This document shows, piece by piece, positions 41,824 through 52,558 of a stretch of 64,000 bases of DNA (position 1 is the stretch's first letter; each line of letters opens with the position of its first letter). Made by a program: the position numbers and the translations under genes. The notes beneath the pieces are model-generated. The model worked only from the letters and a program-made list of their open reading frames with translations. It was not told where the DNA came from and made no database searches. This stretch comes from an uncultured Clostridia bacterium (GTDB taxonomy: Bacteria; Bacillota; Clostridia; Christensenellales; Pumilibacteraceae): positions 412,187 to 476,186 of the forward strand of contig CAOJOK010000001.1 in assembly GCA_948440265.1 (NCBI GenBank), given 5' to 3'.

Positions 41824-44800
41824 TTATCTCCACCCTATAAGCCACAGTTCATCGACATAGCTTACCGTTAAGCAATATGCGGCGCTTTCGTCGTCATAAA
41901 ATATTATTTGCTTACCTACATCGTTATGCCAATCCCGTTCCGAAAATTTTGCCGTTTTAAGATTATCGCACCCGTAAAAAGCTTTGCTGTAGATAGCTTC
42001 CACATAAGAACCTATTTCCACGCTTTTCAAAGACTTGCAGTTCATAAATGCCCAACCGCCGATAGTTCTCGCTTTCCCGTTGACAACGACCTTTTCGACA
42101 TTCGTATCGCAGAAAGCGTAATTTGAGATTTCGTATTTTTCTCCGTCGCAATCGGCAGGCAACGTCATTTCTTTTACATCGGAAAGACAGCAAATCAAAA
42201 TATTTTTGGAATAATTCTTTTTTTGATAAAAAACAAAATCGCCGCTCTTTATGAAGTTGCTTTTATAATTTACGTCATCCGTTATTAAGTCCGCATATTT
42301 CGCCACGCTTCCGTTACTGCTGTAACCTGCGTCGAGGTAGAGACCGGAAAGGTTGACGATTTCATAAAGCTTTTCGCAGTTTGTAAATGCAAAATTTTCT
42401 ATATTCTTTAACTCCGCGTTCAGCGTAACGTTATAAAGGTTGTAACAACTATAAAACGCAAATTCGTCTATCGACACCGTTCTGTCGGCAAGCACGACCT
42501 TATATATAAGCGGATTTTTATAGAATGCGTAAGGCGCAATGCAGTAATTCTTGCCTGCAAAAGCGTCGGGCATAGTCAATTCCCTTTCCTTGCCCTTATA
42601 GCCCAAGACTACCACAGTATCGTCGTTATCGGGATGGACGTAATATATAAAGTCGTCCTTTTCCACGATTTTGCTTTCGGCGGCAGAATTTATATATTCG
42701 ACCAAATAGTTTAGCCCTGCCGAAGAACTTGTGCCCGACGGAAAGACATTGCCTTTCGGCGACACTATTTCATAGAGCTTATGACAATTCGAGAACGAAT
42801 TCTTGCCCAAATTTTTGACGTCCTTTCCCAGCGTGACGCGGACAAGGTTGTAACAGTCGGCAAAAGCGTTTTCGCTGACTTCAATAAGGCTGTCGGGAAG
42901 ATTTACATAAACGAGATTCTTGTTTTCACTGAATGCGCTTACCGCAATCTTCGTCGTGCCCTCGCGCAACGAAAGAGTGTCCGTATCGCCGTACCAGCCG
43001 TAAGCAAGGTTTCCTATGTACGTCACATTGTTATCGTTTTGCAAAAGCTTGTCGCAACCCTTAAATGCTCCTTTATACACATTGCCGACGCCTTTTTCGA
43101 AATAAATTTCTTCCAACATCTCGCAGTTTTCAAACACGCCGTCTTTTATATCGCCTCTCAAGACGGTAACTTTTTTGAGCGACTTCGGAATGTAGTAATT
43201 TCTTTTTGCGACGGTCGACGAATCTTTCAAAAAGCTTTGAGTGACTTCGACATACTTATCCGCCTTTTTTTCAGGCTCTTCCGACGCGAACAAATAGCCG
43301 AAAAGATTTTCTTCGTTGCTGTTCAAATTTGCGCCTGCCCCGACGAAGGGAACGGTCACTTCTTTGAGACTGTCTAAATCTGCAAGGAAGCCTTTGCTTA
43401 TCGTAACGGTTTTGGAATCGAATTCGACGCTTTTGACTCTGCCGCCCAAAGGCTTCAAACTGTCGCCTTTATAATTGTTTCCTATTACCAAATCGAGCCT
43501 GCCCCAGCCGCCGACGACATCGTAAAGCGGCGCGGTCAGTTTCACTTTCGTATCTAATGCCGCATAAATTTCGATTACCGTTCCTTCGTTGTATCTGATT
43601 ATACAGCCGTTTTCATAGGTATAGCCTTTTTCGTTGTCTACCGTGCCTATTCTCTTTTCCGACACGTTCACGCCGAACACCATAGCCGTGACGCAGAGCG
43701 CGCACGCTATCGTCATAAACACTATTCTGCCGACAGTGCCGCAATAGGCGCTTCGCATACGGCGCACCATAAGTACGAAAACCACTATCGTGATTATGCC
43801 CGTCACCACCGTCACGAAGTACGGCAGAAAACTGCCGACGGGCACAAGCATAAGCATCCAGATATTGAAGAAAGGCTGAACGCCGACAAAGCCCAAAATC
43901 TGCGACGTCAGCGTTGCCGCCGTAATCAGAAAGGCAAACACCATAACGATATTGACGGCGGTGTTCTTTATCTTTCTTGCCGCAGCGGATTTTCTCTGCG
44001 CCGCTTTTTCGGTGCGGTTTTTCTCCGCCGCGTCTATCTGCTTCTGTCTGACCGATTTTATATGCGTGAACGTCTTGCCTTCCGCCGCTTTGAGCGCCAT
44101 ATCGAAGTATTTATTGTCCACGACTTCGAAGTCGAAGTTGTAAAGTTCTTCTTCCTTTTGGCAGCCGTAATCGCAAAGCATCATATGCCAATAGACGTCG
44201 GCTTTGTCGGAAGCGTCGTTCAGCACGAGATTGTAATAGTGCATTGCGACGTACCAGAACTTCTTTTCCGACGCGGTATCCGCCATTGCGCGTATGCGGA
44301 GCGGCAGGACGTTGACGGGATAGAAGCTCAAAAACCTGTCGTAAAACTTGATTACGGCGTCGGTGTCCGCGTCCTTGATTTCCGCAGGACTGCGCTTTTG
44401 CGCGGTCTTTAAGTCGACCGTGCGCGCGTCCCAATAGGCTTTCAGACCGTTTACGATTGCCCTGTTCCACCCGTCCACTTTCGTCACGCGCATTTCGCTC
44501 GGGATATATGAAAGAATATCTTTCATACTTTCGAAATCGGAATCGGCAAACTTTACAAGGCGGCTGACTGCGAAATAATCGCCATACGAACAGCAGTATT
44601 TGGACGCCAAAAGATAAATATCCTTTGCTTCTATATTGCCGTCTTCGTACTCGTCGATTATCTTTTTCGCGTAAGCCAGCGCGACCGAAAACTGTCTTTT
44701 ATTCAGGGCGTTGTGCGCCATACCCAATATTTCTTCCGTTTCTTCGGCGTCGGTAAAGCCGAATCTCGGAAGCAGAGTGTCGAACATTTTTTTGTCGCTG

Positions 44801-46260
44801 TCGGCACGCGCCTTATCCAGCAGTTCTTTGAGATGAGTTTTTCTTCTCGGGTAGTCGTACGGCAGGACTATTTCCAGCGCCGCCATTCTCGACTGCGCCG
44901 TGCCGCACGAAGAATTCAGGTATCTATACAAATTATCGAGCACGGTGTGCAGCCAATCCTTGGAGCCGCCGCTTTCGATTATCTTTTTGAACACCGTTAT
45001 GTCGGATACTTTGTTTATGTTTTCGGGCTGTTTGAAGTCGGAAATCTTATTCAGTCCGCAGTCTATGACGAGTTGAAGCGCAAGTATTCTGCCGTCCGTT
45101 CTGCCTTCGGCTTCCACTTCGGCTTTAAGCTCCTGAAACTTTTTGACGGTCTTTTGTCTGCGGCTCGTGCAAAGGTCAGCTTCTATGAGTTCCAGCTGTT
45201 TGTCTATGCTCAACGTGAGTTCGTCGGAGAAAGTCTGTATGGAAAGCGTGCTTTCTTCCACCGTTTCCCTGTCTCTCGTCACCTTTTTCTTGTGCGAAGT
45301 CTTGCCGACGATATCCACCGTGCCCAGACCGTTATAGCGTTTGACGAAGGAGACGAGGCGTTCCACGTCGCTTAAATAGGACGCTTTGAACATATCGAAG
45401 TTCGGCCACTGCGTATCTTTGAGCGCAAGCGGCAGAGACGGCATATTTTCTTCGTAACCCAAAATCAGCGCGGAGCGTTTCTTTTTGCCCTTTGCCATAT
45501 AGTACAAAAATCTGCGCCACTCGTTTTCCACCCACTGCGCGGTCAGGTATTCGCTTTTCGTGCCGACAAGTATCATTGCCTGACTTGTCTGCAATGCTTT
45601 GAGTATTCTCGGCTCGTACTTCTCGCCGTGAAGTCCCGTATCCTTGCCTATAGACACGGGCGAGAAAAACACGCGGTAGCCCTTTTTCCGCAAGTGATTG
45701 AATATTTCTTCGGCTTTCTTCTTGTCGCGCGTTTCCACCGTCAGCGTTTTTCCGTCGGCGGTTTTGACGGTTTCCGAGCTTTTGAAGGAAATGAAAACGT
45801 CGTACGAGCTTTCCTTATCCACGAGTTCGAAGAACTGTTCCAAAAGGGAGTCCAGCTCGTCAGCCTTTCTTTCGTACTCCTTGGCTTCGTCGGGCGAGGC
45901 GAACTTGATACAGTTTTTATAGTTCGCGCTGTCCTTGATTTTCTCTTTCTCGCTGTAAGAGTACGAGAAAAACGTCGGCTTTGCCGTTTCGCCTTCCTGC
46001 ACGTATACGACGCCGAGTTCGGCAAGCAGCGACTGCCAATAGCCCTCGCTGCTCTCGGGCTGTTTCTTCAATAGTTCCTTACAGAGTTCTTCCGCCTGTA
46101 TGAACTCGCGCAGCTGTCTGCGCGAAGCTATTTCCTGAAATTCGCCTGCAAGCGCAGGAGAATTGCTTTCATAAGTATTGCCGCAATACCGACAAACGTA
46201 TTTGCCGTTCTTTTCGGCGAGCGGACTGCAACAGGTGGAACAAATCTTCAATTCTGCCAT
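41824..46260 (-). CDS. Zinc ribbon-TIR-transmembrane-LRR receptor-like protein
   Basis: A 1478-residue protein, last gene of the ESCRT-like operon. Residues 7-26 hold a zinc ribbon (CSTC, CRYC). Residues about 152-305 are a TIR domain: YDVFISFKSSE opens it, and AQWVENEWRRFL carries a W-V-x-x-E pattern (E247) like the catalytic Glu of NADase TIRs such as SARM1. A long helical region with TPR-like pairs follows (about 340-760). Three or four membrane helices lie at about 765-860. Residues about 900-1478 are BspA-type leucine-rich repeats (LRR_5; units such as SLIEVSENAFADCYNLVRVTLG). The parity of the helices decides whether the LRRs are outside. A role as sensor-effector is inferred. AAGGAAA precedes the ATG. 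Confidence 0.88.
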   Translation of the reverse strand: MAELKICSTCCSPLAEKNGKYVCRYCGNTYESNSPALAGEFQEIASRRQLREFIQAEELCKELLKKQPESSEGYWQSLLAELGVVYVQEGETAKPTFFSYSYSEKEKIKDSANYKNCIKFASPDEAKEYERKADELDSLLEQFFELVDKESSYDVFISFKSSETVKTADGKTLTVETRDKKKAEEIFNHLRKKGYRVFFSPVSIGKDTGLHGEKYEPRILKALQTSQAMILVGTKSEYLTAQWVENEWRRFLYYMAKGKKKRSALILGYEENMPSLPLALKDTQWPNFDMFKASYLSDVERLVSFVKRYNGLGTVDIVGKTSHKKKVTRDRETVEESTLSIQTFSDELTLSIDKQLELIEADLCTSRRQKTVKKFQELKAEVEAEGRTDGRILALQLVIDCGLNKISDFKQPENINKVSDITVFKKIIESGGSKDWLHTVLDNLYRYLNSSCGTAQSRMAALEIVLPYDYPRRKTHLKELLDKARADSDKKMFDTLLPRFGFTDAEETEEILGMAHNALNKRQFSVALAYAKKIIDEYEDGNIEAKDIYLLASKYCCSYGDYFAVSRLVKFADSDFESMKDILSYIPSEMRVTKVDGWNRAIVNGLKAYWDARTVDLKTAQKRSPAEIKDADTDAVIKFYDRFLSFYPVNVLPLRIRAMADTASEKKFWYVAMHYYNLVLNDASDKADVYWHMMLCDYGCQKEEELYNFDFEVVDNKYFDMALKAAEGKTFTHIKSVRQKQIDAAEKNRTEKAAQRKSAAARKIKNTAVNIVMVFAFLITAATLTSQILGFVGVQPFFNIWMLMLVPVGSFLPYFVTVVTGIITIVVFVLMVRRMRSAYCGTVGRIVFMTIACALCVTAMVFGVNVSEKRIGTVDNEKGYTYENGCIIRYNEGTVIEIYAALDTKVKLTAPLYDVVGGWGRLDLVIGNNYKGDSLKPLGGRVKSVEFDSKTVTISKGFLADLDSLKEVTVPFVGAGANLNSNEENLFGYLFASEEPEKKADKYVEVTQSFLKDSSTVAKRNYYIPKSLKKVTVLRGDIKDGVFENCEMLEEIYFEKGVGNVYKGAFKGCDKLLQNDNNVTYIGNLAYGWYGDTDTLSLREGTTKIAVSAFSENKNLVYVNLPDSLIEVSENAFADCYNLVRVTLGKDVKNLGKNSFSNCHKLYEIVSPKGNVFPSGTSSSAGLNYLVEYINSAAESKIVEKDDFIYYVHPDNDDTVVVLGYKGKERELTMPDAFAGKNYCIAPYAFYKNPLIYKVVLADRTVSIDEFAFYSCYNLYNVTLNAELKNIENFAFTNCEKLYEIVNLSGLYLDAGYSSNGSVAKYADLITDDVNYKSNFIKSGDFVFYQKKNYSKNILICCLSDVKEMTLPADCDGEKYEISNYAFCDTNVEKVVVNGKARTIGGWAFMNCKSLKSVEIGSYVEAIYSKAFYGCDNLKTAKFSERDWHNDVGKQIIFYDDESAAYCLTVSYVDELWLIGWR

Positions 46261-46311
46261 ATCGGTTTCCTTATCTTTTCAATTTTTATCTATACCTTTT
46301 ACAATCTTGTT

Positions 46312-47085
46312 TTACACGATTACGCCGCACCTACGGAGAAAGTGCTGTACTTCGCTTACGGGTATGGCAATGTTCATACCCTGCGCCTTGCTTCCGTCGT
46401 AATTGCGCCTGCCTGCGACGTGAGTGCCTATCACCAGACCTTCGGCGTTGAACACCGGTCCGCCGCTGTTTCCGGGGTTGGTGGCGCAGTCGTACATAAG
46501 CTGTCCGTTTCTGTCCTTATCGCTGACGATACCGCTTGTTATGCAGGTGCCGCACCCGAGAGAGTTGCCTATGACGTACACCGGCTCTCCCGTGCGTACT
46601 TTTTCGTACCTGCCGAATTTAAGCACCTTTACGCCGACGGGAATACGCGACAGCTTTATCAGAGCCAAATCCGCATTCGTGCTGAAACGCGCTCTGTCGT
46701 GCGTACCCATTTCCACCACTCTTGCGGAAACTGCCTCCCCTGCGATTTTCACGGTACAGCTGCCGCAGGAGTCGCCGCTCTCGGTCGAAACGACGTGGGA
46801 ATTGGTTATGCCGTAACCCTCGGGCGTGATTAAATAGCCGCTACCGCTTCCGTAAGGCGTGGATATTTCCAATATGCCGCCTTCGTTTATCTCGTACAGG
46901 TCGGCGCCGCTCAATTGCCTATGCGTATCGCTTTCGCGCGCGTTCTGTCTTGCAGGCTCGGTATACTTCGGCGCGGGTGCGGGCGCGGGAGCTTCTTCGA
47001 ACTCGGCGCCGCAAAACACGCAACGAAACTTCCCGCCGCCCAAATCCTTACATTCGCCGCCGCAGGCTTTACATTCTTTTGTCAT
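46312..47085 (-). CDS. Zinc ribbon plus trypsin-like serine protease, cytosolic
   Basis: A 257-residue protein. Residues 5-27 are a zinc ribbon (CKACGGECKDLGGGKFRCVFC), then an Ala/Pro linker. The trypsin-like domain has His in YGITNSHVVS, Asp in TNADLALIKLS and Ser in TNPGNSGGPVFN. No signal peptide or membrane helix is seen, so it should act in the cytosol, unlike most HtrA-type enzymes; there is no PDZ domain. Its zinc ribbon matches the style of the TIR-LRR and SPFH partners. It lies 14 bp after the AAA+ gene and 51 bp before the TIR gene, with GGAG before the ATG. Confidence 0.88.
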   Translation of the reverse strand: MTKECKACGGECKDLGGGKFRCVFCGAEFEEAPAPAPAPKYTEPARQNARESDTHRQLSGADLYEINEGGILEISTPYGSGSGYLITPEGYGITNSHVVSTESGDSCGSCTVKIAGEAVSARVVEMGTHDRARFSTNADLALIKLSRIPVGVKVLKFGRYEKVRTGEPVYVIGNSLGCGTCITSGIVSDKDRNGQLMYDCATNPGNSGGPVFNAEGLVIGTHVAGRRNYDGSKAQGMNIAIPVSEVQHFLRRCGVIV

Positions 47086-47099
47086 CTCGAAAGTCTCCT

Positions 47100-49190
47100 T
47101 TAATCGTTCTGTGTTTTCCAGGCAAGTAATTTTTCTATATCTTCGCTTTGCACGGAGGAGGTTACGGTTTCGAGCGCGCCGTCTATATCTTCGTTTTTCA
47201 GCGTCTTTTCGCCCGTTTCCACCGCTCTCAACGCAGACAGTTCTTCAGCCTTATCCAAAAGCGCGGATATATCCGAGCCGTTGAAACCGTTGGTCTTTTC
47301 CACCGCCGCGGCAACGTCTATATCGCCGTCCACGGCAACGATGCCCTTTTCGCGTATCTTTTCGATACGGCGGTTTATCATATACTCTCTCGCCGCGGTA
47401 TCGGGAAGTCCGACGTACACTCTCGTGCCGAATCTGCCCGGTCTGACAAAGGCGCTGTCCACGTCCCACGGCTTGTTTGTGGCGGCAATCAGAAACAGTA
47501 TATTATCCGTCTTTTTGCCGTATGCTTCTATGCCTTGAAGCTGTGAGAGCAGTTCGCTGCGGAGCTGTTTTGCGTACTGCGACTTTGTACTCTTGGGAGA
47601 GATTGAGTCCATCTCGTCGAAATATATGACGGCACACGGGAATTCCCTTGCCTGCGCGAACAGTGCGCGCACGGCTTTCTCGGTATTTCCGACGCCCTGA
47701 TTGAGCAAATCGGACGGCTTTACCGAGCAGAATTTCGCGCCTATTTCGTTGGCTATCGCCGCCGCTATCATTGTCTTGCCCGTGCCCGGAGGTCCGTACA
47801 GCAGCAGTCCGCCGCCGCTCTTTCTGACATAGCCTTCGAACACTTCGGGGTGCGTCAGCGGCAGCAGCACTTTGACCCTGACCACTTCTTTCACGCTGTC
47901 CAAACCTGCTATGTCGTCGAAGTTTATGACGGGCAGGCTGTCCCAATCGAACTTATAATCGGACGCCGCTCCGCCACCTTCTTCCAGCACTTTGTCTTCG
48001 GGGGTCTGCGATTTTTCTTCTCTTTTCGGTTTCGTATCCGAAGGGGTATCCGTTTTTGTTTCGCCGCAGGTATCGGCGTCGATATCGATATCGAAAATCT
48101 CGTCGGGCAAGTCGGACAGTGTGAGCGTCATCATCTCGGCGTCGGTCGGGTCGGACATTCTCGCCACCCTGCCCGACTGTCTTGTTACAATCGTTTCATA
48201 CAGGTTGCGGACGTCTCTGCCGTTGCCGAAGTTCTCGTTGCGCTTTCTATACATCTTTTCGAAGTGCAGAGAGAGCGCTTTTCTTGCGTCGCTATCCAGA
48301 GAGTAGCTGTCTTTCGAGCACATTCTCGCAAAGATATTGTAAAGCTCTTCGCCCGTATAGTCGGGAAAGTGAATGAAGTTTTTAAAGCGCGAGCGCAGTC
48401 CGGGGTTGGAGTTTATGAACTTCTCCATAGGCTTGTCGTAGCCTGCGACTATGACAACGAGATTATCTCTCTTGTCTTCCATTTCTTTGAGTATGGCGTC
48501 TATGGATTCCTGACCGAAGTCGTTGCTTCCGCCGCCGACGAGAGAATACGCTTCGTCTATGAACAGTACGCCGCCGTATGCTTTTTTGAGCACGTCCTTT
48601 GTCTTGACTGCCGTCTGTCCGACATAGCCTGCGACCAATCCGCTTCTGTCCACTTCCACAAGGTGACCTTCTTTAAGCACGCCGAGCGCGCAGTATATCT
48701 GCGCCATAAGCCTTGCCACCGTCGTTTTGCCCGTGCCGGGGTTGCCCGTGAACACGAGGTGATAGGACATATCGGGTACGGGCAGACCGCGCTGTTTACG
48801 CAGGCGGAATACCTTTATCTGGTCCACCCAATCGGATACTTTCTTCTTGACCGTCCCCAGCCCTTCCAGCTCGTTGAGTCTTTTAAGAGCTTCGTCCAGC
48901 GTGATTTTGTCGTTTTTGCTCACGCTGACGTTGCCGCCGTCCTTTTCTTCTTCGCCTGTTGCCGCTTTCTTTTCCGCGCCGATATTCTCGGCGAACTCGA
49001 CAATGCTCTTTGCCCTGCGGTAGCGCGTCTTTTGAAGCTGACCGTCGCTCTGCTTTGCCATTTTGAGCATTTGCTCCGCCGCCAGCATATAGTATTTTTT
49101 AGCAAGAGCTTTATCGCCTTTGTCCAAACTCAACTTGGCTTTCTTATAATACAAGTCGAAAGTCTCGCTTAACAAATTCATTTCGTCCAT
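47100..49190 (-). CDS. MIT-like domain plus CbxX-type and Vps4-type AAA+ ATPase
   Basis: A 696-residue protein. Residues 5-72 form a three-helix MIT-like domain (ETFDLYYKKAKLSLDKGDKA, then KYYMLAAEQMLKMAK). The first AAA+ domain, about 97-345, is of the CbxX/SpoVK type, with Walker A GNPGTGKT 149-156, Walker B LFIDEAY and NPGLRSRF. A disordered acidic linker covers 365-412. The second AAA+ domain, about 420-665, is Vps4/katanin-like: FDDIAGLDSVKEVV, Walker A GPPGTGKT 466-473, Walker B VIYFDEMDS, and RPGRF. The end (NEDIDGALETV to SVQSEDIEKLLAW) resembles the Vps4 C-terminal region. Likely to remodel the adjacent Snf7-like polymers. The tandem of these two AAA types is unusual. Confidence 0.88.
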   Translation of the reverse strand: MDEMNLLSETFDLYYKKAKLSLDKGDKALAKKYYMLAAEQMLKMAKQSDGQLQKTRYRRAKSIVEFAENIGAEKKAATGEEEKDGGNVSVSKNDKITLDEALKRLNELEGLGTVKKKVSDWVDQIKVFRLRKQRGLPVPDMSYHLVFTGNPGTGKTTVARLMAQIYCALGVLKEGHLVEVDRSGLVAGYVGQTAVKTKDVLKKAYGGVLFIDEAYSLVGGGSNDFGQESIDAILKEMEDKRDNLVVIVAGYDKPMEKFINSNPGLRSRFKNFIHFPDYTGEELYNIFARMCSKDSYSLDSDARKALSLHFEKMYRKRNENFGNGRDVRNLYETIVTRQSGRVARMSDPTDAEMMTLTLSDLPDEIFDIDIDADTCGETKTDTPSDTKPKREEKSQTPEDKVLEEGGGAASDYKFDWDSLPVINFDDIAGLDSVKEVVRVKVLLPLTHPEVFEGYVRKSGGGLLLYGPPGTGKTMIAAAIANEIGAKFCSVKPSDLLNQGVGNTEKAVRALFAQAREFPCAVIYFDEMDSISPKSTKSQYAKQLRSELLSQLQGIEAYGKKTDNILFLIAATNKPWDVDSAFVRPGRFGTRVYVGLPDTAAREYMINRRIEKIREKGIVAVDGDIDVAAAVEKTNGFNGSDISALLDKAEELSALRAVETGEKTLKNEDIDGALETVTSSVQSEDIEKLLAWKTQND

Positions 49191-49205
49191 TCGGATTTTT
49201 CCTTA

Positions 49206-49778
49206 TCAAATGCCTGAATCTATCTTCTTTTTAAGTTCGGCAAGCTCTTTGTCTATCATATTCTCCATAGCGTCGTCCGCCGCCGCGTTCGAGAATATCT
49301 GTTCCAGCTCTTTGTCTTCCGCCGCATTGCCGCTTGACGACACTGTGGAGAATGCCGATTCCGTTTCGTCCATAAAGTTTTCTATCTGTTCGGTCTGCAT
49401 TTCCACGCCCATCATAGCTTCGTTGAACTGCGCCTGCACTTTCAAGAAGTCCTTTTCCTTGGTTATCTTCATCATATCCTTGGACAGCGAGCTCATACCC
49501 TGCAAAAACTGCGACGTCATCTGCGTCATATCTTTCATCTGCGACGTGATTTCGAAATTCAGTTTCATTTCGTACACGCGCTTTTGCTGTACTATCGTCA
49601 TTTTGAGTCCGGAAAGCGCAAGGTTGTATTGCGCGGCAAGTCCGCGCTGTTTTGCCTGCTTGCCCGCTTCTATGTAGACCTGCTTCTGCTCTTCCAGCTT
49701 TTGTATCTGCTTATTCATTGCGTTGACCGTCTTTTTGATAAGCATTTTCTTTTCCAATTCTTTTTTAGCGTTTGCCAT
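49206..49778 (-). CDS. Snf7/ESCRT-III-like protein B with MIM1-like C-terminus
   Basis: A 190-residue, wholly helical protein. Residues 1-75 form a basic helical hairpin (KKTVNAMNKQIQKLEEQKQ ... AKQRGLAAQYNLALSGLKM), then a Met/Gln-rich helix (EITSQMKDMTQMTSQFLQGM) and an acidic C-terminal part, the order of Vps2/Vps24-type ESCRT-III subunits. The last helix, E172 to K183 (ENMIDKELAELK), fits the MIM1 consensus (D/E)xxLxxRLxxL(K/R) with Ile for the first Leu and Glu for Arg. MIM1 is what binds the Vps4 MIT domain in eukaryotes and archaea. It is 15 bp upstream of the MIT-AAA gene. GAAGGAG precedes the ATG. Confidence 0.8.
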   Translation of the reverse strand: MANAKKELEKKMLIKKTVNAMNKQIQKLEEQKQVYIEAGKQAKQRGLAAQYNLALSGLKMTIVQQKRVYEMKLNFEITSQMKDMTQMTSQFLQGMSSLSKDMMKITKEKDFLKVQAQFNEAMMGVEMQTEQIENFMDETESAFSTVSSSGNAAEDKELEQIFSNAAADDAMENMIDKELAELKKKIDSGI

Positions 49779-49790
49779 TGTTTAACTCCT

Positions 49791-50387
49791 TCACTCGGTA
49801 TCGACGCTCTTTTTTTCTTCTGCCGCCGCCGCTTCGGACAGGCTCTGTTCGTTTTCGATTTGCTCCTCTTCTTCGAACATAGACAGCAGTGCGTTATCGT
49901 CCTGGTTCATTCCGTATATGGTCTGGTTCTTCTCGTACGCTTCTTCCACGGTGCGGAAGGTTTCGTCGGCGGAGGTCAGCACTTCTTCTGCCGCCACTTT
50001 GGTGCCGAGAGCGCCGTTTAAAAATTTCGCAAGACCTTTCTGGTCCTTTAACAGATTGCCGAGCGACGCTTTCTGCGTATTCTTGAAAAACTTATTGTCG
50101 TCGATTGCCGCTTTCAGTTTGTTCAGCAGCTGTATGTTATACATAAGATACATAGCGCGCTGAATGTCCTGCTCGCGTTCCGACTTCAACATATTTATCT
50201 TCTTTGCATAGAAGAGCTGCATATCTTTCGATTTTTCGCTCTTGCCCTTTTTCATAAGGTCGTCTACCTGCGCCTGCTTCTGCATAAGTCCGTCTTCTAT
50301 CTCTTTGGACTGCTGTTCCAAATCGCAAATCGCGGTGACGACTTCTTCTCTGGTCAGTTTATCGTATTTGCTTTTAAAAGGCCACAT
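49791..50387 (-). CDS. Snf7/ESCRT-III-like protein A
   Basis: About 198 residues from ATG 50387 (GAGG 5 nt upstream), beginning MWPFKSKYDKLTREEVV. A basic N-terminal segment, long helices (LEQQSKEIEDGLMQKQAQVDD, then KKGKSEKSKDMQLFYAKKIN) and a Glu-rich tail with FEEEEQIENEQ match the layout of Snf7 core subunits: basic hairpin first, acidic autoinhibitory tail last. Sequence identity to known ESCRT-III is low, so the call rests on layout, on its sister gene and on the Vps4-like partner. It could alternatively be a PspA/Vipp1-like divergent member of the same superfamily. Confidence 0.65.
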   Translation of the reverse strand: MWPFKSKYDKLTREEVVTAICDLEQQSKEIEDGLMQKQAQVDDLMKKGKSEKSKDMQLFYAKKINMLKSEREQDIQRAMYLMYNIQLLNKLKAAIDDNKFFKNTQKASLGNLLKDQKGLAKFLNGALGTKVAAEEVLTSADETFRTVEEAYEKNQTIYGMNQDDNALLSMFEEEEQIENEQSLSEAAAAEEKKSVDTE

Positions 50388-50394
50388 ATCAACC

Positions 50395-50826
50395 TCACTG
50401 CTGTTTGACGCCGCGGTCGGCAATCGTGAGCTTTATCTGTTTGATGAGATTTTCCGTCTTTTTGTCTTCTTCGCCGTCGGTTTTGGTGAGCGCGATTTTA
50501 AGGTCGCCGATAAGGTTGGTTATCTTCTTGTCGAGCTCGAATACGTCGTCTTTCACGGACGGCATAAGATATTTTATTTTTTCCTGCAATTCTTTGAGTT
50601 CGGCGATAAGCTCGGCGTTATTTTCGGCAAGCACCAAGAGTGCTTCCACCGAAGCGGCGTTTGCCGCAATCAAGTCTCTGTCTTCCTTGTTTCTGTCGCC
50701 GTCCGTTCCGCGGCGTTTTCTTCCCGTAAGGAAGAAAACAACTGCAAGCACCGCAATCAAAGCAACTGCGCCTATTACTATTCCTATGATAAGCGGCATA
50801 TTTACCGCAAGCAATAATCCGTTCAT
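50395..50826 (-). CDS. Membrane-anchored coiled-coil protein
   Basis: A 143-residue protein: one N-terminal membrane helix (PLIIGIVIGAVALIAVLAVVFFL) followed by a basic stop (GRKRRG) and about 95 residues of heptad-rich helix (ASVEALLVLAENNAELIAELKELQEKI). This topology leaves the coiled coil in the cytosol, where it could recruit the Snf7-like proteins to the membrane. It lies 12 bp after the SPFH gene and 7 bp before Snf7-A. GGAGAG precedes the ATG. No family recognised. Confidence 0.75.
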   Translation of the reverse strand: MNGLLLAVNMPLIIGIVIGAVALIAVLAVVFFLTGRKRRGTDGDRNKEDRDLIAANAASVEALLVLAENNAELIAELKELQEKIKYLMPSVKDDVFELDKKITNLIGDLKIALTKTDGEEDKKTENLIKQIKLTIADRGVKQQ

Positions 50827-50838
50827 TTTACACTCTCC

Positions 50839-51870
50839 TTATTTCAACTCGTTGCCGCAGGACGAGCAGAATTTCGCGCCTGCATCATTTTTGTTTCCGC
50901 ACTTTTCGCACACTTTTTCCGTTACGACGGGTTTGCCGCAATTGGGACAGAAAGCCGCCGCCCCCGGTACGGGTTTGCCGCAATGCGCGCAGAACTGTCC
51001 GCCCGCCGCCGCGCCGCCGCTGCCGCCCGTGCTCGGGTGACCTATGACTTTGAGCACGTCGTAATAGGCTTTCTTGTCTTCCAGTTCCAGCTTTCTCAAA
51101 TATACGTCTCTTTCGAACTTCTTGTCGTCCAGTCTTTCCAGCTCGGCAAGGTATTCTTTGAGTTTGCGCTGACGCTGTGCTTCTTTAGCGAAGTCGTCTA
51201 TGCTCTTGCCTTCTTCGTCGGTTATGCCGACGTACTCTATGATGAAGTGGTCGAGACCGATACCCCAGCTCTTTGCAAAGCTTTCCGACAGTATCTCTCC
51301 CACTCTCTCGCCTATTTCCTTTTTCTCCGCCGCGAACTGGTCGTACGTCAGTTTTCTTTCCCTGACTACGCGCAGGAAGCAATCGGTGAACTCGTTGACG
51401 ACTTCGGCTCCGAAACGCTTTTTGAAGTCTTCCAAATCGAACTCGCTGCGTGCGCCGACGACCTTGCGGAAGAACTGCTCGCAATTGACGATATGTATTC
51501 CGAACTGTCCGCGCGCGCCGACGTTGACGACTTCCGAGCTCGCTTCGTCGCGGTATTTAAAGCGCTGGGGCGTTCCCCACAAAATGACGACGTCGGTGTC
51601 TTTCGGCATATAGACTACTTCGACGGAAAAGCCTTTCTTCCAATCCTTGATTTCCTTTTTGCCGTCGAATACGTCATAATGTCCGCTGTCGTATATGCGC
51701 GCGTCTCCGCCGCCCTTTATGACATAGGCGCGGTGCGTCAGCGGCACTTCAATCATTGCGTTCTTATTCGTAACGATGTCGTTTACACGAACGAACAGGA
51801 TACTGTTGTCATTCACGCTTGCCTTGCAAAGGTTTTGCTCGAACTTGATAATCTGCGGTTTTCCAAACAT
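50839..51870 (-). CDS. SPFH-domain protein with double zinc ribbon (YdjI-like)
   Basis: A 343-residue protein, first gene of the operon. Residues about 20-230 are the SPFH/band-7-like domain of the cytosolic YdjI group (PLTHRAYVIKGGGDARIYDSGHYDVF, then YVGITDEEGKSIDDFAKEAQRQRKL). A charged helical arm follows. Residues about 294-340 carry two zinc ribbons (CAHCGKPVPGAAAFCPNC and CEKCGNKNDAGAKFCSSC). In B. subtilis the ydjFGHI operon joins a PspA (ESCRT-III superfamily) to the SPFH protein YdjI, a close parallel to this gene order. No transmembrane helix. Confidence 0.88.
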   Translation of the reverse strand: MFGKPQIIKFEQNLCKASVNDNSILFVRVNDIVTNKNAMIEVPLTHRAYVIKGGGDARIYDSGHYDVFDGKKEIKDWKKGFSVEVVYMPKDTDVVILWGTPQRFKYRDEASSEVVNVGARGQFGIHIVNCEQFFRKVVGARSEFDLEDFKKRFGAEVVNEFTDCFLRVVRERKLTYDQFAAEKKEIGERVGEILSESFAKSWGIGLDHFIIEYVGITDEEGKSIDDFAKEAQRQRKLKEYLAELERLDDKKFERDVYLRKLELEDKKAYYDVLKVIGHPSTGGSGGAAAGGQFCAHCGKPVPGAAAFCPNCGKPVVTEKVCEKCGNKNDAGAKFCSSCGNELK

Positions 51871-51934
51871 AATTTATCTCCTTATCTTCTATTTTTCATA
51901 TTCCTTATAAATATATATTTTTTTACACGCATTT

Positions 51935-51963
51935 ATTATAAAGTAAAACCCGATATTTGTCAA
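51935..51963 (-). promoter_or_regulatory. Perfect promoter of the ESCRT-like/TIR operon
   Basis: Minus strand: TTGACA (51963-51958), 17 bp, TATAAT (51940-51935). The leader before the SPFH ATG is about 58 nt and ends in AAGGAGATAAATT. Confidence 0.88.
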
Positions 51964-52126: not shown

Positions 52127-52558
52127 TCAGAGATAGTGTTTCATTTCGTCGAGATTTTTCTGTTCTATGCATTTCAAGCGGTATGCGAGATTTACGGCGT
52201 CGCAGTTGCAGTCGCTGTGCTCTTTCAACTGTTTGGTGACGTCTATGATTCCCATAGTGCTGCCCTGTATCACCATTTCGGCAATATGTTCCGCGGACTT
52301 ATCCATCATCGTCTTGGCGTTTATCATAACGCGGCAACAAAACTGCGTTATCTTGGAGCCGTCTTCCGGCTGTTCGCCCGCCGCCGCAAGTTTCTCTTTC
52401 GCCTGCACTTCCACCGTGCGGTATTCCGCGACCTGACTTTGAAGGGTCTCTTTCAGGCGCTCGTCTTTTACGTCGGGCATAAGCGTTTCGAGATTGTCTC
52501 CGCCCATCTTCGCATTGCGGTTGATATAATTCAACAGCTGTTTGTCTTTTTCCGTCAT
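52127..52558 (-). CDS. Helical, ferritin-like hypothetical protein
   Basis: A 143-residue protein predicted as a four-helix bundle (DKQLLNYINRNAKMGGDNLETLM, LKETLQSQVAEYRTVEVQAKEKL, CCRVMINAKTMMDKSAEHIAEM, LKEHSDCNCDAVNLAYRLK). It resembles small ferritin-like DUF proteins of Clostridia, but the Glu-x-x-His metal pairs are not complete enough to claim metal binding. AAGGAG precedes the ATG. It lies 23 bp after the polysaccharide deacetylase and likely shares its mRNA. Confidence 0.65.
   Translation of the reverse strand: MTEKDKQLLNYINRNAKMGGDNLETLMPDVKDERLKETLQSQVAEYRTVEVQAKEKLAAAGEQPEDGSKITQFCCRVMINAKTMMDKSAEHIAEMVIQGSTMGIIDVTKQLKEHSDCNCDAVNLAYRLKCIEQKNLDEMKHYL

Follow-up and report, generated by a model that had tools for sequence, protein, structure and literature searches.

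A candidate bacterial ESCRT-III and MIT-type ATPase pair in a clostridial operon with TIR and protease genes

The pairing of a protein of the endosomal sorting complex required for transport III (ESCRT-III) with an ATPase of the MIT type is described as limited to archaea and eukaryotes. The relevant passages report that a clear Vps4 homologue is missing from bacteria (PMC7615534), mention bacterial ESCRT-III-like proteins with no bacterial Vps4 in the passages concerned (PMC7618577), and name the ATPase partner, if any, of bacterial PspA and Vipp1 as an open question (PMC8281802). Partial precedents, all from one source, are bacterial VPS4-like ATPases found without snf7, bacterial Snf7 homologues that adjoin AAA+ genes, and PspA adjoining a double-AAA protein whose N-terminal copy is inactive (PMC11237479). 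Here, we analyse an operon of seven genes in a 64,000-nucleotide stretch of DNA from an uncultured Clostridia bacterium (contig CAOJOK010000001.1; the whole stretch is hereafter the window). In order of transcription, it encodes an SPFH protein, a small membrane-anchored coiled-coil protein (TM-CC), the proteins E3B and E3A, an AAA+ ATPase with a predicted MIT domain, a trypsin-like protease, and a protein that joins a TIR domain to leucine-rich repeats (LRRs), as listed in Table 1.

On the basis of sequence comparisons and predicted structures, it is well supported that an ESCRT-III-type protein, E3A, and a MIT-type AAA motor share one conserved bacterial operon, and the link of the TIR and protease genes to this operon is real by neighbourhood. 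The original prediction for this locus held that no characterised bacterial system is known to combine a MIT/Vps4-type ATPase with TIR and protease components. In the available passages of the open-licence literature, preprints excluded, we found no description of a bacterial operon joining ESCRT-III and a MIT-type ATPase to TIR or protease genes, which is compatible with the claim, although the partial precedents named above qualify it.

The ESCRT-III-type protein and its MIT-type ATPase

Three lines of evidence support the assignment of E3A, predicted from the outset to be Snf7-like, to the ESCRT-III type: the score of a relative, the predicted fold and an asymmetry of charge. The relative at locus L094 (L-numbers denote individual loci) is 42% identical to the window protein and reaches 34.0 bits against a Pfam Snf7 (PF03357) cut-off of 27.3, and PF03357 is precomputed in 21 of 50 database relatives of the L094 protein, so that the window's E3A is tied to Snf7 by one clear step. 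A Pfam Snf7 search of 200 genomes of the order matched six, with L094 and L095 over the cut-off by that tool (L095 fell slightly under it, at 26.5 bits, in the protein scan), and our E3A profile matches the Snf7 proteins of both. In the AlphaFold model (mean predicted local distance difference test (pLDDT) 76, predicted template modelling score (pTM) 0.53, with residues 146-172 below a pLDDT of 50), predicted helices at residues 2-44, 48-102, 108-148, 153-165 and 169-187 form a long α1-α2 hairpin followed by shorter helices, as in ESCRT-III. A Foldseek search of this model against the PDB places CdvB of Sulfolobus islandicus at ranks 1-2 and CHMP1B/IST1 filaments at ranks 3-4 (E 0.08 to 0.14). 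Furthermore, ESCRT-III proteins have a basic N-terminal and an acidic C-terminal half, and E3A carries a charge of +10 in its N-terminal 110 residues and -12 in the remainder.

The gene that follows encodes the ATPase, the N-terminal domain of which has a predicted MIT fold with the MIT domain of Sulfolobus Vps4 as its top PDB match (Foldseek, E weaker than 0.001), in line with the MIT-like start that had been proposed for it. The predictions thus hold both an ESCRT-III hairpin and a MIT fold, the ESCRT-III fold match being weak by E-value. Behind the MIT domain, Pfam finds AAA over two stretches (2.1e-54) plus AAA_lid_6, and the Walker motifs of both modules are intact (A at residues 149 and 466, DE-type B at residues 210 and 524).

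A profile scan of named genomes with E3A returned 83 relatives, and the best 80 of these 83 were kept as the loci behind the counts out of 80 given below. The titles shown for them are of metagenome-assembled genomes or isolates, mostly Clostridia, Clostridiales or Eubacteriales, with some Christensenella, Coproplasma or Caccovivens, one 'Bacilli' and three 'uncultured bacterium'. In a survey of their neighbourhoods the homologues co-occur: in 80/80 loci E3A is followed on its own strand, within 6 kb, by a MIT open reading frame (ORF), and in 66/80 the distance is within 200 bp. This ORF also holds a classical AAA domain or its start in 75 of the 80; L041, whose frame is cut off by the contig end and whose AAA match falls on the CbbX module, is outside the 75. 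E3B is directly upstream of E3A, an SPFH gene lies within 4.5 kb, and a TM-CC gene within 3 kb, each in 73/80 loci. In six of the seven loci lacking SPFH, E3A starts no more than 2.3 kb into the locus, and three of the seven lacking E3B (L033, L036 and L052) have an overlong start call for E3A, with E3B present.

A reverse search used a MIT profile made from operon members and is therefore a consistency check and not blind: it matched 27 of 297 genomes of the order, at 31 places, and E3A or E3B was found within 1.5 kb in 26 of the 30 loci examined (one place has no locus). The exceptions are L104, L112, L129 and L131, and the classical AAA match is weak in L118, L125 and L128. At the level of the phylum the E3A profile matched 1 of 398 genomes, the window's own, and at the level of the class a single-sequence search matched 2 of 291; taken with the order-level count, these figures make the system narrow and patchy.

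Within this family the motor varies around a constant MIT domain. A CbbX module occurs in the MIT ORF of 30/80 loci, as also in the window's subgroup, and is absent from the other 50, which show a plain form of MIT followed by one Vps4/Cdc48-type AAA, mostly of about 375 amino acids; four loci (L028, L037, L040 and L042) have MIT with CbbX alone. The single AAA cassette directly after MIT that is present in relatives such as L013 is absent from the window's ATPase, which is a Vps4-like variant and not Vps4 itself, because a CbbX-type AAA has been added between the MIT domain and the Vps4/Cdc48-type AAA. That the motor is interchangeable (MIT-Vps4, MIT-CbbX-Vps4 or MIT-CbbX) while MIT is kept fits MIT as the fixed coupling to ESCRT-III. 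At the other end of this putative coupling, a relaxed pattern resembling MIT-interacting motif 1 (MIM1), drawn up after the tails had been seen, matches 69/80 E3A tails, compared with 2.0 expected from shuffled tails.

The window's own genome holds two further sets of related genes. In one (L012:6724-10200; G000:C2, about 208200-211700), another E3A/E3B pair and its SPFH gene are followed by a gene for a RelA/SpoT-domain protein, with no MIT ATPase in that stretch; the same kind of set in L095 (G375) has its own MIT-AAA gene and a RelA/SpoT-looking frame downstream. A solitary MIT-AAA ATPase of 351 amino acids (L132:8006-9061; G000:C6) has no E3A or E3B match in its 18-kb stretch and is flanked, as judged by eye, by a LigD-type-ligase-like gene and a FabZ-like gene; L129, from the same genus, may hold its counterpart. 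Elsewhere, many loci have a TPR-like gene of 115-120 amino acids between TM-CC and E3B (L013:7434-7781 and relatives), which is absent from the window and the product of which resembles part of the TIR protein (phmmer).

The seven ORFs were found at the coordinates first given for them; they are consecutive on the minus strand and all start with ATG, separated in transcription order by 12, 7, 12, 15, 14 and 51 bp. The tight spacing and the single perfect promoter claimed for the operon were thus both confirmed. The promoter is ordinary for its genome, since 87 exact matches to the -35 and -10 hexamers with spacers of 16-18 occur in 1.86 Mb, compared with 1 for the pattern read backwards. The arrangement itself is beyond chance, because a similar gene order recurs in 80 other loci. 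A DUF2383 (PF09537) gene lies on the same strand just upstream of the promoter (window positions 52127-52558).

Table 1. Features of the operon, with positions in the window.
Feature	Position	Strand	Evidence
Promoter TTGACA-N17-TATAAT, 5' of the first gene (SPFH)	51935..51963	-	genome pattern scan
SPFH (Band_7_1) protein, 343 aa, C-terminal double zinc ribbon	50839..51870	-	Pfam 6.8e-17
TM-CC, small membrane-anchored coiled-coil protein, 143 aa	50395..50826	-	hydropathy
E3B, 198 aa, basic N half, acidic C half; putative E3A partner	49791..50387	-	charge, gene position
E3A, 190 aa, Snf7/ESCRT-III family	49206..49778	-	42%-identical L094 relative over Snf7 cut-off; AlphaFold; Foldseek
MIM1-like C-terminal helix of E3A, residues 172-183	49230..49265	-	relaxed pattern
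AAA+ ATPase, 696 aa, MIT - CbbX/SpoVK AAA - Vps4/Cdc48-type AAA	47100..49190	-	Pfam, profile scans
MIT domain, residues 1-75, predicted three-helix bundle	48966..49190	-	structure prediction
CbbX/SpoVK-type AAA module, residues 103-361	48108..48884	-	TIGR02881 6.1e-90, AAA_lid_6
Vps4/CdvC/Cdc48-type AAA module, residues 419-692	47115..47936	-	profile scans
Trypsin-like (HtrA-type) protease, 257 aa, N-terminal zinc ribbon, GNSGG at residue 205	46312..47085	-	Trypsin_2 1.5e-24
Zinc ribbon - TIR - hydrophobic segments - BspA-type LRR protein, 1478 aa	41824..46260	-	Pfam, hydropathy
TIR domain, residues 152-277, candidate catalytic Glu216	45430..45807	-	conservation in 80 TIR sequences

Membrane proteins, TIR protein and protease

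The two genes at the head of the operon turned out as they had been described, with a Band_7_1 match and C-terminal zinc ribbons in the SPFH protein and a single strong hydrophobic segment at residues 12-30 of TM-CC. The zinc ribbon is common to the SPFH protein and both putative effectors, the TIR protein and the protease.

Domain matches to TIR_2 (9.3e-10) and LRR_5 (1.1e-48), together with hydropathy, bear out the proposed order of zinc ribbon, TIR, transmembrane segments and LRR in the last protein of the operon. Proteins with a zinc ribbon and TIR were found in 69/80 loci (78 proteins), and these, with the window's protein and that of L013 (on the same contig as L087), make up a set of 80 TIR sequences. 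In 78 of them the zinc ribbon is contained in the first 60 residues, most have hydrophobic segments past the TIR region, and the sole invariant column of their alignment is a Glu (216 in the window; 80/80), the next best columns reaching 97%. This Glu is the candidate catalytic residue, by its likeness to the catalytic Glu of SARM1-type NADases. The C-terminal part varies, with BspA-type LRRs in the window and a weak GLUG signal in L013.

The protease, predicted to be a cytosolic zinc-ribbon trypsin, has the zinc ribbon and Trypsin_2 match expected of it, and the hydropathy scan found no strong hydrophobic, putatively transmembrane, segment. A trypsin-like relative occurs in 25/80 loci, each time with an N-terminal zinc ribbon and GxSGG (25/25).

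Several of these modules recur in a distant locus, L133:547-11336 (G430:C5), which has genes for a phage integrase and a RuvB-like AAA protein as neighbours. It encodes a sub-cut-off Snf7 protein (24.7 versus 27.3 bits), a Vps4-like AAA protein, a protein with a helical start and a trypsin domain, and one with a weak TIR match (20.4 bits against a cut-off of 28), a zinc ribbon and LRRs; L097 and L098, from two further genomes, hold related Vps4-like genes. BrxL (BREX Lon-like) genes stand in the operon or end it at L057:5708-7144 and L074:17447-18859, among ten proteins scanned from nine loci.

Possible functions of the operon

With moderate confidence, we favour a reading in which the operon encodes an ATP-driven membrane-remodelling module that senses membrane stress and engages the TIR protein and the protease as effectors. 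We infer the mechanism from its parts, namely a membrane platform, a filament, a motor and two effectors with a common zinc-ribbon tag. Through the SPFH protein and TM-CC, E3A (and E3B) would come to sit at the cytoplasmic membrane. The MIT domain would hold E3A by its C-terminal helix, and extraction of subunits by the AAA motor would remodel or seal the membrane. The zinc ribbons may serve as docking tags that bring the TIR protein and the protease to this platform. There, a signal from outside or from the membrane could be read by the LRR (or GLUG) domain at the C terminus of the TIR protein, whose TIR domain could then act on NAD+; a defence response may be set off in this way. The original prediction, of membrane repair or scission tied to a damage or phage response, is likewise a putative role that goes beyond what sequence shows.

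A bolder form of this proposal, which we regard as possible and doubtful, is an innate-immune membrane complex: the ESCRT-III filament and the MIT-AAA motor would seal or cut, and a zinc-ribbon TIR receptor with an external LRR would decide, with the zinc-ribbon protease docked beside it on the SPFH platform, between repair and self-destruction. If true, a single bacterial operon would unite a complete ESCRT-III/Vps4 system with a Toll-like LRR-TIR receptor, and the coupling of ESCRT to immunity would be older than eukaryotes or would have arisen twice. Some observations weigh against the favoured reading. The window's TIR protein has four hydrophobic segments (one at threshold) and most relatives with such segments have three, which makes the side of the membrane that carries the LRR uncertain. 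PADLOC names no fitting defence system, leaves the TIR-LRR protein unmatched, and has as its only matches of note in the operon a generic AAA (IetA, TRIP13) and a protease (RT-Protease_XI). Searches with E3A gave no viral, plasmid or phage match, and downstream genes are of similar length in many loci, so that the locus is unlike a mobile defence island.

These last two points also suit a rival that we judge unlikely, in which the operon is a housekeeping module for envelope stress or membrane repair, like PspA-SPFH of Bacillus, with a Snf7-type protein and its own ATPase; the TIR, LRR and protease parts would then serve adhesion, scaffolding or quality control with no immune role. The pairing with SPFH is as in YdjI/PspA (PMC10936438 and PMC11237479), and PspA exceeds its cut-off in only 2 of the 297 order genomes, which therefore leaves the niche open. 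However, the TIR domain diverges everywhere except at its invariant Glu, BrxL and integrase genes are among the neighbours, and a MIT domain found in only 27 of those 297 genomes is patchy for a housekeeping function.

It is improbable, in our view, that there is no ESCRT system here and that generic coiled coils work with a CbbX/Cdc48-type remodelling ATPase on an SPFH scaffold or other complex, the likeness arising from common helical shapes. A number of results nevertheless point in this direction or count against our assignment. Taken by itself the window's E3A has no Snf7 match in Pfam, and Snf7 support depends on few relatives: 17 of 34 chosen E3A members match, only at a loose limit of E ≤ 1 (no other Pfam family matches as many of the 34, or as well), and of ten members scanned singly, L094 alone passes the cut-off, L041 reaches 18.9 bits, two are weaker and six have no match. 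Foldseek gave no match reaching E 0.001 for either the E3A or the MIT model, the E3A profile matched no PDB chain, and the VIA structural comparison of E3A, dominated by unrelated generic helical chains, is not discriminating. E3B, which the original prediction had made a second Snf7-like protein, shows no detectable Snf7 relationship; Snf7 is not among the 25 families listed for 38 E3B members, and its hhalign score of 21.0 compares with 20.2 reached by 60 column shuffles and 19.1 for E3A against an unrelated MIT profile (E3B does share the polarity of charge, at +4 and -13 for its two halves). The MIT domain is weak by sequence, since Pfam MIT is found in 2/34 members of its family (best 1.7e-4), with TPR_8 and DUF1771 in 7/34 each. 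Strict MIM1 occurs in 0/80 E3A tails, because Glu replaces the usual Arg of MIM1 in 68 of the 69 relaxed matches; judging from sequence, this Glu could be accepted by Arg56 and Arg59, which are near-invariant in the third MIT helix.

For the motor, the original call of a CbxX/Vps4-type ATPase stands as far as the CbbX module and a Vps4/CdvC/Cdc48-type module go, but with CDC48 ahead of CdvC by score: the window's AAA scores 171.1 bits with CDC48 and 164.0 with PAN against 155.5 with CdvC, and a 374-amino-acid relative 220.1 with CDC48 against 211.8 with CdvC (both CdvC scores against a cut-off of 650), with Vps4_C at 18.4 bits in that relative, below its cut-off of 21.3. A control search of 299 genomes of the phylum gave six sub-cut-off Snf7 matches, none adjoining a related ATPase, and weak matches therefore do arise by chance. 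Yet in the order all but one of the six Snf7 matches, an ABC-F-like protein, adjoin a gene for a Vps4-type AAA, relatives exceed the curated Snf7 cut-off, and the MIT and ESCRT-III predictions, made separately, converge on one operon.

Finally, a cell-division or vesicle-scission machine like archaeal Cdv, to which CdvB as the top fold match and an end-to-end alignment of the CdvC profile with a relative would speak, is very improbable, since FtsZ is over its cut-off in 14/14 tested genomes with the MIT ATPase, which makes division in place of FtsZ unlikely, and the 270 of 297 order genomes without a MIT match divide all the same. The window's own genome also contains a second FtsZ_C-domain frame of 317 amino acids (G000:C2:110450-110719).

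On the favoured reading of a stress-sensing membrane-remodelling module, the locus family puts forward a specific bacterial ESCRT-III-ATPase pair as a candidate, of a size that can be reconstituted, and connects this pair to TIR, LRR and protease modules. The family bears both on the origin of ESCRT and on how membrane damage in bacteria may be coupled to cell death.

Comparison with known systems

Among bacterial loci, those with PspA or Snf7 beside AAA+ genes share with the window an ESCRT-III-superfamily gene adjoining an AAA+ gene, in one form with two AAA modules; the N-terminal module of that protein is inactive, whereas the window's ATPase has both Walker sites intact and is led by MIT (PMC11237479). 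Archaeal Meth_adaptin ESCRT loci likewise contain an SPFH protein that carries a coiled coil and a zinc ribbon, but the window's is bacterial and has TIR and trypsin where those have adaptin and GOLD domains (PMC10936438). In YdjFGHI of Bacillus, PspA and the SPFH protein YdjI give the same juxtaposition of a C-terminal zinc-ribbon SPFH protein and an ESCRT-III-superfamily protein; the window has instead a Snf7-type protein, a MIT ATPase and effectors, and the PspA family (PF04012, PspA_IM30) is unmatched in its genome at E ≤ 0.001.

Toll-like receptors and bacterial TIR defence (Thoeris, CBASS) share a TIR domain with a candidate catalytic Glu, and an LRR joined to it through membrane segments, with the window's protein, which differs in having TIR first (the reverse order), an N-terminal zinc ribbon and a tie to ESCRT genes. 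With archaeal CdvB/CdvC and Asgard or eukaryotic ESCRT-III-Vps4, the common ground is a Snf7-family protein and a MIT-AAA ATPase in one locus, and archaeal CdvB and Vps4 MIT are the top fold matches of the window's E3A and MIT. Unlike these, the window's system is found in bacteria with FtsZ, has an extra CbbX module and a Glu for the Arg of MIM1, and comes with SPFH, TIR-LRR and protease partners.
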